Below are positions 46,488 through 50,942 of a DNA stretch of 57,093 nucleotides, in pieces (position 1 is the stretch's first letter; every line of letters begins with the position of its first letter). The DNA comes from Cytophagales bacterium (GTDB taxonomy: Bacteria > Bacteroidota > Bacteroidia > Cytophagales > Cytophagaceae), in the NCBI GenBank assembly GCA_013297765.1, contig JAAFID010000002.1, forward strand, positions 1-57,093, in the 5' to 3' direction. The notes below the pieces were generated by a model. The model was given only the letters and a program-made list of their open reading frames with translations, made no database searches and was not told the DNA's origin. The position numbers and the translations under genes are program-made.

Positions 46488-48749
46488 ATGAATATTTGCA
46501 ATAGAATTGCGAAAATAGCATTGATATTATCTATGCCACTCGCTAGTAGTGCACAACTTAGCACCATATCTTTTAATAATCAGGTGTTGGGTGAAAACAA
46601 AGGAATGGGCATGAATATAGAGTTTATGCAAACTCCCAGTTGGCAAACATCTCCTCTTATGCTAAATAAGATGCCTTTTGGTGTATTTGAACATGACTTC
46701 AATAACGTTGCGGCATATCCCGAAGCCGACCAATGGAAGTATAGCAATGGAACTGCCACCGCAGATAAAACAGCTCCATTTCAAGGAAAGCAATGCCTTA
46801 AATTCGTTTCTAATGGTAATAATGGCCTATTATCTAACCAATCTCAATTTTTTTTCGAAAGTAATACCCTTCACAAGTTTAGTATTGCCTTAAAAGCTGA
46901 AGCCAATTTTAATGGCACAGTGAATATAAGTCTAGGCAATCAGTATTTTGGCAATCAAAATAACCTTACAAGTGCAAACATAACCCCTACCAAAGACTGG
47001 AAAGTATATACTTTTGACCTTGGCAATATTAAAGTGGGTGATTTTATTGATAGAAAAAATATTAACATAAAAGGCTCAGGAACAGTGTATATTGATGATG
47101 TCAAATTATACACTGCAGCTGACGATAGAGGTGACAAATTTGCTAAAAGTGTTGTAGATAAGTTAAAAGAATTTCAACCAGGTCTAATGAGATGGGGAGC
47201 CATTCCAGCAAATTTCTACAATTTTAAAGAAAGTACAGGTATAGGTGTACCCAATAGATTTACCTATGGTGATTGGGTAAAAATTAGCAATGAACTAAAT
47301 AGCGTACCTGATATCTGTGTAGGTGTAGATTACAAGACCGATTACGTAGATGAAACGAGTAATACGTTCAAGTTATTTGCAGAATATCTAACAGGCGACG
47401 CTACTACTGATGGTGGCAAAATAAGAATTTCAGAAGGTTATACTGCACCTTTAGTGCAAAATTCCAAGGAATTTATTATAGAAATGGGCAATGAAGTATG
47501 GGGTGGGGCTGCACATGGAGCATCTTTCTATAGTTTAGATGGTCAGGTAAGCATGGATGAATACATGAAATTTACAGAGGCAGGTATTACTTCTATGAAT
47601 AATGTACCCTCATATACAGCCAATAAAAACAAAATTTCAGTAGTATATAGTGGTTGGAGTGTAAGTGTTGGCGACTCTTGGAATTTGTCGCTTATCAATA
47701 GACGATTTAAAAGATTAGGAGACCAAATAGCGTTGAGCGGTTATTTGGGTGGAAACCTAGCCCTAGAAAATGGCATTCCCCTGACCGATCCTACGAGCAT
47801 AGACGCCCAAAGAGATTATTATAAGAAAACAATCGCAAGCATTCCTGTAACTACAGCAAGGGCTATACAGCTAAAGGATGCTGCCGCTAAATCTCAAGGT
47901 AAAAATATGCCTTTCTTCTTTTATGAAGGCACGATGACCAATGAAAAGTATTATGCCAAACTGGGTCAAGCAGTAGTCTATATGGATTATATTATGGAAA
48001 TGATGAGAATAGGCAATCTGTCATGGCCTGTGGCATTTAACTTTACTGGCGGTCAATATGCTTTGGTATATAATGATAACGGAGTATGGAAAAATAAGCC
48101 CATGTTTACATTGGGAAAAACATTTAACAAACTTACCAAAGGCAAAATTTTATCTTCCTCTATTGCTGGCCCCTTGGACTCGGCAGTTACTGGGGGTACA
48201 AAATACCCAAAATTAGGACACCTACTGACCTCGCCAGATGGAAAAAACTTTTCGTTAATGCTTACCAATAGGGATTTCAACAATGCTCAAAGTGTTAAAG
48301 TAGAACTTCCTGCCAATGCCACCTTTTCCAATAATGCCACTATCACAACTATTTCTGCAACCAATTGGAACGTAGATAAAGAGTCTGATTTGAGTATTGT
48401 AACCAATAGTATCAGTGATTTTAGCAAGAATAAAAGTATAGAAGTGCCGAAATTTGGCACTGTAGTGATTAACTTTACAGGCGACTTAAATTTGATAACT
48501 AGTACAGAAAATATCGGTCAGCATACCGATAAACTCTCTGTAAACATATATCCAAATCCAACTAATAAAATCATTACCATAGAGGGGGTATCCAATCCTT
48601 CTACTAAAGTTTATAATTCTTTAGGAATGGAAATAATGGTTTCTAATTCAAACGTTATTGATTTCTCTGGTATGAGTAGGGGTATCTATAATCTAATCAT
48701 CCATAGTGGTGAAAGTATTACAAAAGAAAAAGTAATAGTGGTAGATTAG
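46488..48749 (+). CDS. Secreted clan GH-A-like glycosidase with T9SS sorting domain
   Basis: 753 residues. Signal peptide to about residue 22 (SSAQL). Residues 75-210 look like a CBM4/9-type beta-sandwich (FVSNGNNGLLSNQSQFFFES; GTVYIDDVKLY). Residues 212-560 resemble a TIM barrel: EFQPGLMRWGAIPANFYNF, candidate acid/base Glu336 in IIEMGNEVWGG (Asn-Glu pair of clan GH-A), and candidate nucleophile Glu480 in MPFFFYEGTMT. A C-terminal beta domain follows, then a T9SS domain (IYPNPTNKIITIEG). The plan recalls alpha-L-arabinofuranosidases (GH51) but motif fit is loose, so family and substrate are uncertain. Confidence 0.75.
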   Translation: MNICNRIAKIALILSMPLASSAQLSTISFNNQVLGENKGMGMNIEFMQTPSWQTSPLMLNKMPFGVFEHDFNNVAAYPEADQWKYSNGTATADKTAPFQGKQCLKFVSNGNNGLLSNQSQFFFESNTLHKFSIALKAEANFNGTVNISLGNQYFGNQNNLTSANITPTKDWKVYTFDLGNIKVGDFIDRKNINIKGSGTVYIDDVKLYTAADDRGDKFAKSVVDKLKEFQPGLMRWGAIPANFYNFKESTGIGVPNRFTYGDWVKISNELNSVPDICVGVDYKTDYVDETSNTFKLFAEYLTGDATTDGGKIRISEGYTAPLVQNSKEFIIEMGNEVWGGAAHGASFYSLDGQVSMDEYMKFTEAGITSMNNVPSYTANKNKISVVYSGWSVSVGDSWNLSLINRRFKRLGDQIALSGYLGGNLALENGIPLTDPTSIDAQRDYYKKTIASIPVTTARAIQLKDAAAKSQGKNMPFFFYEGTMTNEKYYAKLGQAVVYMDYIMEMMRIGNLSWPVAFNFTGGQYALVYNDNGVWKNKPMFTLGKTFNKLTKGKILSSSIAGPLDSAVTGGTKYPKLGHLLTSPDGKNFSLMLTNRDFNNAQSVKVELPANATFSNNATITTISATNWNVDKESDLSIVTNSISDFSKNKSIEVPKFGTVVINFTGDLNLITSTENIGQHTDKLSVNIYPNPTNKIITIEGVSNPSTKVYNSLGMEIMVSNSNVIDFSGMSRGIYNLIIHSGESITKEKVIVVD

Positions 48750-48851: not shown

Positions 48852-50942
48852 TCAATGGACTTTTCTAAACGTAAATTTCTCTTCATTATTAGATAAGGGA
48901 ATAAGTGGAATGTTATCCCAAGAGTATTGTGTATCTCCAATTATCTTAAATAGAAGCTTCGATATACTACTTTGAGGCCAAGCGTGAAATTCACGAAATG
49001 AAAATGATATATGAGCAGCATTAGTGTCTATAGGAATAATTATTTCATTACCACTATTACCAACATTAGCTTCTCTAATACTAGTAAATCCTTCTGATAT
49101 AAAAATTTTAACATCTCCACCTATGTGCTTATGCTCACCTATTTTTTGTATGTATAAATTTCCATTTTGACACTTGGTTTTAAATAGATAATAGTCTGGC
49201 CACACTTTATTTCGATAAAAAAGAATGGCATATCCAATAGTATCTTGCAAATTTTGTTTGTAATTTATTGGATACTGAGACAAATTCATCCTATCCGTAA
49301 ACAGGTCTGCAGAATTTTCTGAATGTAATTTTGGTGGAATAATATCTCCAAAATTTTCTTTGAATAATTTATTATATATATGATACGATTCTGCATAGTT
49401 CATTGTACTTGGATGGTGAGGCTGCCAAGGTATAGTATAAGGTCCCGAAGTTAAATAACTGGCAATTTTCAGTTTATTATTATTTACAAAGGAGATGTTA
49501 ATCAAAAATGTAATGAATACCATTAAAAATATCCCTGTATTGCGTAATAGTTGATTTCTTATAAATACAAATCCTAACAAAGCTGGATAAAAGTAGAAAG
49601 TTGCAGGTAACAAAGTTCTCACATCTTTATTCCAAGTAATTGTGCCAATAATATATGCAAATAAAATACTGGCATAACCCAAATAATTCATCAATTTTCT
49701 TTTTCCAAAATATTTGATACTAAAGAAAAAGCCAATCAAAATTACACTTAAAACAATTGGAGAAAAATAGTATAAGAATTTTGCAGGATACCAAAGAATT
49801 GAAGCTATACTCATAGGCATAGGATCGCCTTCATTTTGGCCAGCTAGTGTAGTTACATCTGGTAGCTGATAACTATAATGATCGTTGTTTAATAAATACC
49901 AAAATCCACCACCTAATATCATACCTATTATATGTAATAAAACACTAGTAAATAGATTTTTAAATTCAAATCTGTTTCGAAAACATTTTATCAATAATCT
50001 AATGATACTAAAGAAAAGGGGAACTATTGCTAATAATAGAAAGTTAGACTTGGTCAATAACCCTAGCCCAAAGATCAATCCTACGTAAAATGATTGATTC
50101 GTATTCTTTAAATATCCAGATTTTGCCAATCTATAATTATAAAAGCAAACCATGCATAAGGCAGGAAAATCTAGCATCAATTGTTTCGTAAGGCTAGTGG
50201 CAACTACACTTCCAAAAATCACAAAGGTAAATACAGAGGCATAGGTGTATTTTATCTTCGCATAATTTTTAAAAAATTTAAAAGCAGAAACATATCCTAT
50301 TGGAAGCCAAAATAATGGAAGACTAATCGTTGCGGCTGTATAACTTTTGCCAAAAATCAATAAAAAAGGAAAGGAAACGATATAAACCAATGGCTGATAG
50401 AAATCATAATAAGTAATGGATTGAAGTAATTTATAAGCATCTTGACTTGTTATTAAATCATATATTTGAAATACATTGACACAATGTCTTGCTTGATCAG
50501 ATTTTATATCACCATTAAAATCAAAAAGTATGTAGTAAGAATTTAATAAAATCAACAAAAGCATGGGGGCATAAAAAATCAATCTTTCCTGTTTTTTCTC
50601 ATCGCCATCTGACCACAATAAAAGTGTAGGAATGGATATCAAAAACAGTGATCTAATAAAAGAATAATGAAAAATCGAAAATGGATTTGTAAGATGAAAA
50701 GGGAAAATAGATATTATCAAACTAATAAAGAAGAGACTATAAATTACAGCATTTCTCTTTTTGCTTTTGTCTGATGTATGCATCTCATTCCATAACTGAA
50801 TAAAAAAAGTTATAGTTACAAATATACTTACCACTAGTAAGCTAGGTTCTACATTACCAGATTGTAGAGAGCCCCAAATAATTAGTAACCCAGCAAATAA
50901 AAATCTTATAAGCTGGTTAGTTGAGGAAGTTGTGAAATTCAT
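48852..50942 (-). CDS. Membrane glycosyltransferase, GT-C fold (GT39-like)
   Basis: 696 residues with about 12 or more membrane helices in residues 10-500, then a roughly 190-residue soluble C-terminal domain. A likely catalytic loop lies near residue 145 (FDFNGDIKSDQARHCVNVFQ), with acidic residues after an early helix as in ArnT/PMT-type enzymes, and later YYDFYQPLVYIVSFPFLL. Such enzymes transfer a sugar from a polyprenyl-phosphate donor to lipid or glycan outside the inner membrane. Starts three bases after the GT2 gene that could make the donor. Confidence 0.8.
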   Translation of the reverse strand: MNFTTSSTNQLIRFLFAGLLIIWGSLQSGNVEPSLLVVSIFVTITFFIQLWNEMHTSDKSKKRNAVIYSLFFISLIISIFPFHLTNPFSIFHYSFIRSLFLISIPTLLLWSDGDEKKQERLIFYAPMLLLILLNSYYILFDFNGDIKSDQARHCVNVFQIYDLITSQDAYKLLQSITYYDFYQPLVYIVSFPFLLIFGKSYTAATISLPLFWLPIGYVSAFKFFKNYAKIKYTYASVFTFVIFGSVVATSLTKQLMLDFPALCMVCFYNYRLAKSGYLKNTNQSFYVGLIFGLGLLTKSNFLLLAIVPLFFSIIRLLIKCFRNRFEFKNLFTSVLLHIIGMILGGGFWYLLNNDHYSYQLPDVTTLAGQNEGDPMPMSIASILWYPAKFLYYFSPIVLSVILIGFFFSIKYFGKRKLMNYLGYASILFAYIIGTITWNKDVRTLLPATFYFYPALLGFVFIRNQLLRNTGIFLMVFITFLINISFVNNNKLKIASYLTSGPYTIPWQPHHPSTMNYAESYHIYNKLFKENFGDIIPPKLHSENSADLFTDRMNLSQYPINYKQNLQDTIGYAILFYRNKVWPDYYLFKTKCQNGNLYIQKIGEHKHIGGDVKIFISEGFTSIREANVGNSGNEIIIPIDTNAAHISFSFREFHAWPQSSISKLLFKIIGDTQYSWDNIPLIPLSNNEEKFTFRKVH

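Follow-up and report, generated by a model that had tools for sequence, protein, structure and literature searches.

The window, i.e. the whole stretch of 57,093 nucleotides that was analysed, carries an open reading frame of 753 amino acids on its forward strand. Its coordinates are exactly those given by the sequence-only reading, which had proposed a possible divergent, secreted GH51-like glycosidase that may be of a new or rare family. The features of the gene are as follows.

46488..48749, forward strand: whole open reading frame, 753 amino acids (open reading frame call; orthologue 67% identical)
46488..46556, forward strand: probable Sec signal peptide, residues 1-23 (by eye: positive residues, a hydrophobic stretch and small residues before the cut)
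46557..46625, forward strand: N-terminal strand segment ahead of the inserted domain, with a GxG motif (G39, G41), residues 24-46
46626..47123, forward strand: inserted carbohydrate-binding-like beta domain, residues 47-212 (family alignment A1; profile match to long GH51 enzymes)
47124..48098, forward strand: catalytic region, a predicted GH51-like barrel, about residues 213-537 (hhalign against GH51 alignments)
47190..47201, forward strand: R235-W-G-A in place of the GH51 RxPGG motif, R235 being the equivalent of GH51 Arg69 (alignment)
47211..47213, forward strand: N242, an invariant Asn shortly after the altered motif (12/12 rows)
47490..47495, forward strand: N335-E336 in a GNExWG motif, predicted acid/base (aligned to the GH51 acid/base)
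47736..47744, forward strand: S417-G-Y419 in place of GH51 His244-x-Tyr246 (alignment)
47922..47927, forward strand: Y479-E480, predicted nucleophile (12/12; aligned to the GH51 nucleophile)
48099..48482, forward strand: C-terminal beta domain, about residues 538-665 (alignment with the C-terminal domain of GH51)
48546..48740, forward strand: T9SS type A sorting domain, residues 687-751 (PF18962, E 3.2e-8; TIGR04183)

The landmarks R235-W236-G237-A238, N335-E336 and E480 had all been placed correctly in the earlier reading. The C-terminal sorting domain, from which T9SS export had been proposed, passes the curated cut-offs both in Pfam (Por_Secre_tail, residues 687-751, 34.2 bits, cut-off 27) and in NCBIfam (TIGR04183, 29.8 bits, cut-off 23). 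It is the only domain of the protein to do so; a weak NCBIfam match to NF048003 at residues 73-177 (19.5 bits) lies below its cut-off of 36. A clear match to a known family had been named as one result that would speak against the proposal, and neither Pfam nor NCBIfam lists a catalytic family for the protein even at E values as high as 1. The domain layout is more than chance since it is kept by the orthologue (L022, 67% identical) and by the paralogues, and since both catalytic Glu residues are invariant across the cores; G39 and G41 are likewise invariant in 11/11 rows of alignment A1. The clan GH-A fold, a (beta/alpha)8 barrel with Glu at the ends of strands 4 and 7, is predicted by way of the GH51 alignment. 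AlphaFold gave a pLDDT of 31.4 for the full protein and 35.9 for the core, values that are probably low because the input alignment was shallow, consisting in each case of only the window protein and L022.

The active site was compared residue by residue with GH51, the counts referring to 12 aligned family cores that are 19-70% identical to the window protein. The GH51 analysis in PMC4666033 gives Glu29, Arg69, Asn74, Asn174, Glu175, His244, Tyr246, Glu294 and Gln351 as key residues of GH51, with Glu175 as the acid/base, which bonds His244, and Glu294 as the nucleophile, which Arg69 appears to keep deprotonated. E336 aligns with Glu175 and E480 with Glu294. Each is Glu in 12/12 cores, and in the merged alignment of the family with GH51, whose halves were merged as profiles, both columns hold Glu in 26/26 rows. 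The earlier choice of this pair as the catalytic residues is thus borne out by the alignment, where they would be acid/base and nucleophile, respectively. Y419, the equivalent of Tyr246, is Tyr in 12/12 cores and R235, the equivalent of Arg69, is Arg in 11/12. The picture is different at other positions. The PGG of RxPGG is missing from all 12 cores, and S417, the equivalent of His244, is Ser in 5, Gly in 5, Ala in 2 and His in none; the altered GH51 motifs pointed out from the sequence (RWGA for RxPGG) are confirmed. N335, the equivalent of Asn174 and the Asn that precedes the acid/base in clan GH-A, is Asn in 6/12 cores, that of the window protein among them, the others having Cys (3), Thr (2) or Ser (1). 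The invariant N242 (12/12) is near the place expected for Asn74 and out of register with it. Glu29, Asn74 and Gln351 have no secure counterpart, the alignment being unreliable at Glu29 and Gln351. On this comparison the catalytic apparatus is retained, whereas the sugar-holding part has been rebuilt.

The relationship to GH51 was examined by comparing profiles. A profile of 10 family cores (A2) aligns with A5, a 14-sequence GH51 alignment, over 395 columns spanning the barrel region and the beta domain in full, with a score of 141.5 and P 8.3e-18, where hhalign P values refer to single comparisons and not to database searches; against a 13-sequence version of the GH51 alignment the score is 140.5. 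The other glycoside hydrolase profiles gave 25.1 (GH39, 81 columns), 21.5 (GH30), 16.0 (GH5) and 15.4 (GH20), the alignments containing 7 sequences for GH39 and 14 each for GH30, GH5 and GH20. The maxima of 20 column shuffles per alignment were 23.2 for GH51, 20.2 for GH39, 26.7 for GH30 and 19.0 for GH5. GH39 is therefore slightly above its own shuffles, though still below the top shuffle of GH30. As a scale, GH51 and GH39, which are clan-mates in clan GH-A, score 52.2 against each other in the same test. The four other families, with scores of 15-25 against 140.5, were thus rejected as nearest relatives; of the two families suggested earlier for an overlay, GH51 rather than GH39 is the nearest of the five compared. 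The GH51-like plan read from the sequence holds at the sequence level. Subsets of GH51 gave P 6e-12 (seven short enzymes) and 7e-12 (three mixed ones), and the three long GH51 enzymes by themselves gave a short match to the core of 43 columns (P 7e-4).

A GH51 HMM recognises 8/12 cores at E <=2.6e-5 (Z 10000), including the window core at 3.1e-6, a score that is the sum of two weak pieces, the better with E 0.022. The remaining 4/12 cores go unrecognised, with E between 0.045 and 75. Of 61 controls, made up of 49 proteins of other GH families and 12 reversed cores, the best has E 0.07. In the reverse test the family HMM finds 3/13 GH51 proteins at E <0.001, the best at 3.5e-5; among other GH families nothing scores better than E 6.6. 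PF06964 is listed weakly for 3 of 10 cores in a Pfam scan (best E 0.0059; none for the window core) and for 1/6 full-length members (15.7 bits, below the cut-off of 27). L056-L059, whose PF06964 matches are weak or partial, were tried as bridges and rejected, their scores against the family being 15.5-32.6. When the 10 cores of A2 are joined by L129 and by L130, an intermediate sequence described below, the resulting profile of 12 cores (A7) reaches a higher score against GH51, 164.5. In the PDB, six of the seven sequences that A7 lists up to E 5 are alpha-L-arabinofuranosidases, with a best E of 9.3e-4. These matches depend on L129 and L130, since A2 by itself found no GH51 in the PDB and gave two weak matches only, to a PPR protein and a GH16 protein. 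The single window protein had one chance-level PDB match (E 0.83).

In an unrooted FastTree of 381 columns the 12 cores form one clade (support 1.000), within which L130 branches first (0.936 for the remaining cores). The clade joins the long GH51 enzymes with a support of 0.824 and a branch length of 1.2; having no outgroup and long branches, the tree is silent on whether the family is nested within GH51 or sister to it.

The inserted domain at residues 47-212 is present in 5/11 rows of A1 (including a partial copy) and absent from 6/11. Pfam has no match for this region. Its profile matches the insert at the equivalent site of three long GH51 enzymes over 80 columns (score 44.9, P 1.3e-5; 20 shuffles <=19.6, four other GH alignments <=15.4), which agrees with the CBM-like domain described in the sequence-only reading. 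There is no match (score 13.9) to the mixed 13-sequence GH51 alignment, where the long enzymes are outnumbered by short ones that lack the inserted domain. Among six other family members of full or near-full length that were scanned with Pfam, PA14 is above the cut-off in 3 and fn3 in 5, and 5/6 carry a T9SS sorting domain (Por_Secre_tail in 4, CHU_C in 1). L129 additionally has CBM9 and Big_2.

The family is small. The window's own genome (G000, 3.56 Mb, 290 contigs) has nine matches to the window protein, five of which were set aside as covering only the tail end (residues 608-752). The family copies number four: the window gene, one on C132 that is truncated by the contig end and is 43% identical within residues 2-333, one on C233 (30% identical) and one on C282 (32% identical). 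The orthologue L022 comes from Cytophagales bacterium isolate PH2015_01D_33_11 (REBA01000012.1), and by eye the copy in G001 has the same sequence. When 195 related genomes were searched with the protein, 6 matched; one of these (G114) was dropped because its L014 matches over 75 residues of the CBM region only, in an open reading frame with no catalytic core. Profile searches covered the window's phylum and viral contigs. Among 395 genomes of the phylum A2 matched two, the own genome and G316, whose match (L024) is a GH51 enzyme and was dropped before counting. Among 390 genomes of the order it matched 8; true members are found in 6 (G000, G001, G037, G052, G092 and G584), in line with the rarity proposed earlier, and the other two matches are the intermediate L130 (G019) and L131 (G656). 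The latter was dropped, as 57 positions match at the beginning of an open reading frame whose remainder appears by eye to be a universal stress protein; the first ~26 residues of L131:745-1683 resemble the C-terminal beta domain of the family, perhaps because a gene remnant lies upstream, perhaps by chance. No relative was found in the viral contigs and no match in plasmids. When A7 was run against 395 genomes of the class, 18 genomes matched, the own one included; the other 17 hold 18 places, all of which align with the GH51 profile (P <=5e-37), with RxPGG in 17/18. Exact-phrase literature searches for GH51-like families gave no paper, and among the papers listed by other searches none names such a family in its title or in the opening of its abstract.

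The intermediate L130 (G019:C9, 148-2931) is a 927-aa T9SS protein for which Pfam gives no catalytic family. Its match to the family has P 6.9e-18 and that to GH51 P 7.6e-8, and it has the motifs GNETWNG and YEAGPGY as well as a CBM-like region recognised by eye. On its own it matched two PDB entries by way of the T9SS tail, plus three arabinofuranosidases with E 0.72-0.78.

On one side of the window gene is an acyl-CoA dehydrogenase-like gene, on the other are polysaccharide-assembly-like genes (by eye; GT2 by domain scan). This context says little, as the neighbours are cell-envelope and housekeeping genes outside any glycan-utilisation locus. One of them, on the reverse strand at 48852-50942, encodes a 696-aa membrane-like protein beside the GT2 gene; judged by eye it may be a membrane glycosyltransferase, and it has no Pfam match at E up to 0.01. 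Neighbours of the relatives were scanned around L120, L122, L124 and L126 (of nine stretches, L120-L128) and L022. In G037 (L124) and G092 (L126), which belong to a single genus other than that of the window, a TonB-dependent receptor (SusC-type by place), SusD and a CBM9 protein come after the gene; L124:3-7475 and L126:2-6869 are candidate glycan-utilisation loci. The C282 copy of the own genome adjoins GH97, and the C132 copy adjoins a T9SS protein with CHB_HEX_C_1, beyond which lies a T9SS protein with a near-cut-off GH59 match (L122:2793-4421, 26.5 bits, cut-off 27). L022 has T9SS proteins with CHB_HEX_C_1 and CBM9 as neighbours; at L022:5967-7868 there is a 633-aa protein in which a glucosamine-6-phosphate isomerase is fused to a PIG-L deacetylase domain. 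The own genome has two GH30 matches and no match to PF06964, GH39, GH5 or GH20.

Taken together, we are fairly confident that the gene product is an exported glycoside hydrolase and that its small family forms a divergent sister lineage of GH51 within clan GH-A. Judged by its motifs and by Pfam, it falls outside canonical GH51. The protein is probably a retaining glycosidase, and it probably works chemically like GH51. The homology to GH51, the alignment and invariance of both Glu, the T9SS tail and the glycan-utilisation genes next to two relatives are computed results; the signal peptide, the fold, the activity, the retention and the substrate are predictions. In the mechanism that we propose, the Sec signal and the T9SS tail would carry the protein to the cell surface or the medium, and the inserted beta domain would help to bind glycan. 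The barrel would then cleave a glycosidic bond by retaining double displacement, with E336 as the acid/base and E480 as the nucleophile, the latter kept deprotonated by R235. Because neither the RxPGG loop nor the acid/base-contacting His is kept, the enzyme probably acts on something other than the alpha-L-arabinofuranoside usual in GH51, or binds its substrate differently. A more specific version, to which we would give an even chance, is that this is a new GH family, sister to GH51 and known so far from few relatives of the window's organism, with a rebuilt -1 subsite and paralogues that cleave different, non-arabinofuranose substrates. As part of that same evenly balanced proposal, the subsite would have lost RxPGG and the His, and the clan Asn would be open to replacement by Thr, Cys or Ser.

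The strongest competitor is that we are looking at an outlying GH51 alpha-L-arabinofuranosidase of the same family and activity whose motifs have diverged. The similarity of the profiles along the full length, the shared catalytic residues, the intermediate L130 that matches both groups and the unrooted tree that joins the clade to the long GH51 enzymes (0.824, on a branch of 1.2) would all fit such an enzyme. Yet PGG is missing and the active-site His replaced in every one of the 12 cores, and PF06964 is barely detected (3/10 cores, best E 0.0059; 1/6 full-length members, 15.7 bits against a cut-off of 27), for which reason we consider it rather unlikely. Less probable still is that a GH51-like ancestor gave rise to a surface protein without catalytic function that binds glycan or serves in adhesion. 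The PA14, fn3 and CBM9 domains of the relatives and the altered substrate-site residues could be read in this way; however, pseudoenzymes usually lose catalytic residues, while here both Glu and Tyr419 are kept in 12/12 cores and Arg235 in 11/12 despite low mutual identity.

That the protein is unrelated to GH51, a generic barrel similarity with a T9SS tail added, might be suggested by the missing direct family match, but we find this hardly credible: GH39, GH30, GH5, GH20 and the shuffled controls score far lower, the alignment spans the beta domain with both catalytic Glu in register, and the T9SS tail is outside the compared core. If the sister-lineage reading is true, annotation based on Pfam and NCBIfam overlooks a group of secreted carbohydrate-active enzymes, as exemplified by the window's genome, which has zero PF06964 matches but four copies, the one at a contig end being incomplete. 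The family would then also be a natural experiment on change of active-site specificity in GH51, and some of its sequences have another residue where clan GH-A has Asn ahead of the acid/base.

It is instructive to set the general features of the family beside those of known systems. The domain order is common to the family and GH51, including the long type, and so are the GNExWG acid/base motif, the nucleophile Glu, the C-terminal beta domain and the equivalents of Arg69 and Tyr246. On the other hand, the family has lost RxPGG, has Ser, Gly or Ala for His244 and a variable residue for Asn174, is only ~16% identical to GH51, and the window protein is without a Pfam catalytic match. GH39, put forward earlier for an overlay, is a clan-mate of GH51, but its profile score of 25.1 over 81 columns is far from the 140.5 of GH51. 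A third system for comparison is L130. It is only 19% identical to the window core and has a longer stretch after the nucleophile, whereas it shares with the family the CBM-like region (by eye), the acid/base motif in the form GNETWNG, YE at the nucleophile and the T9SS tail.
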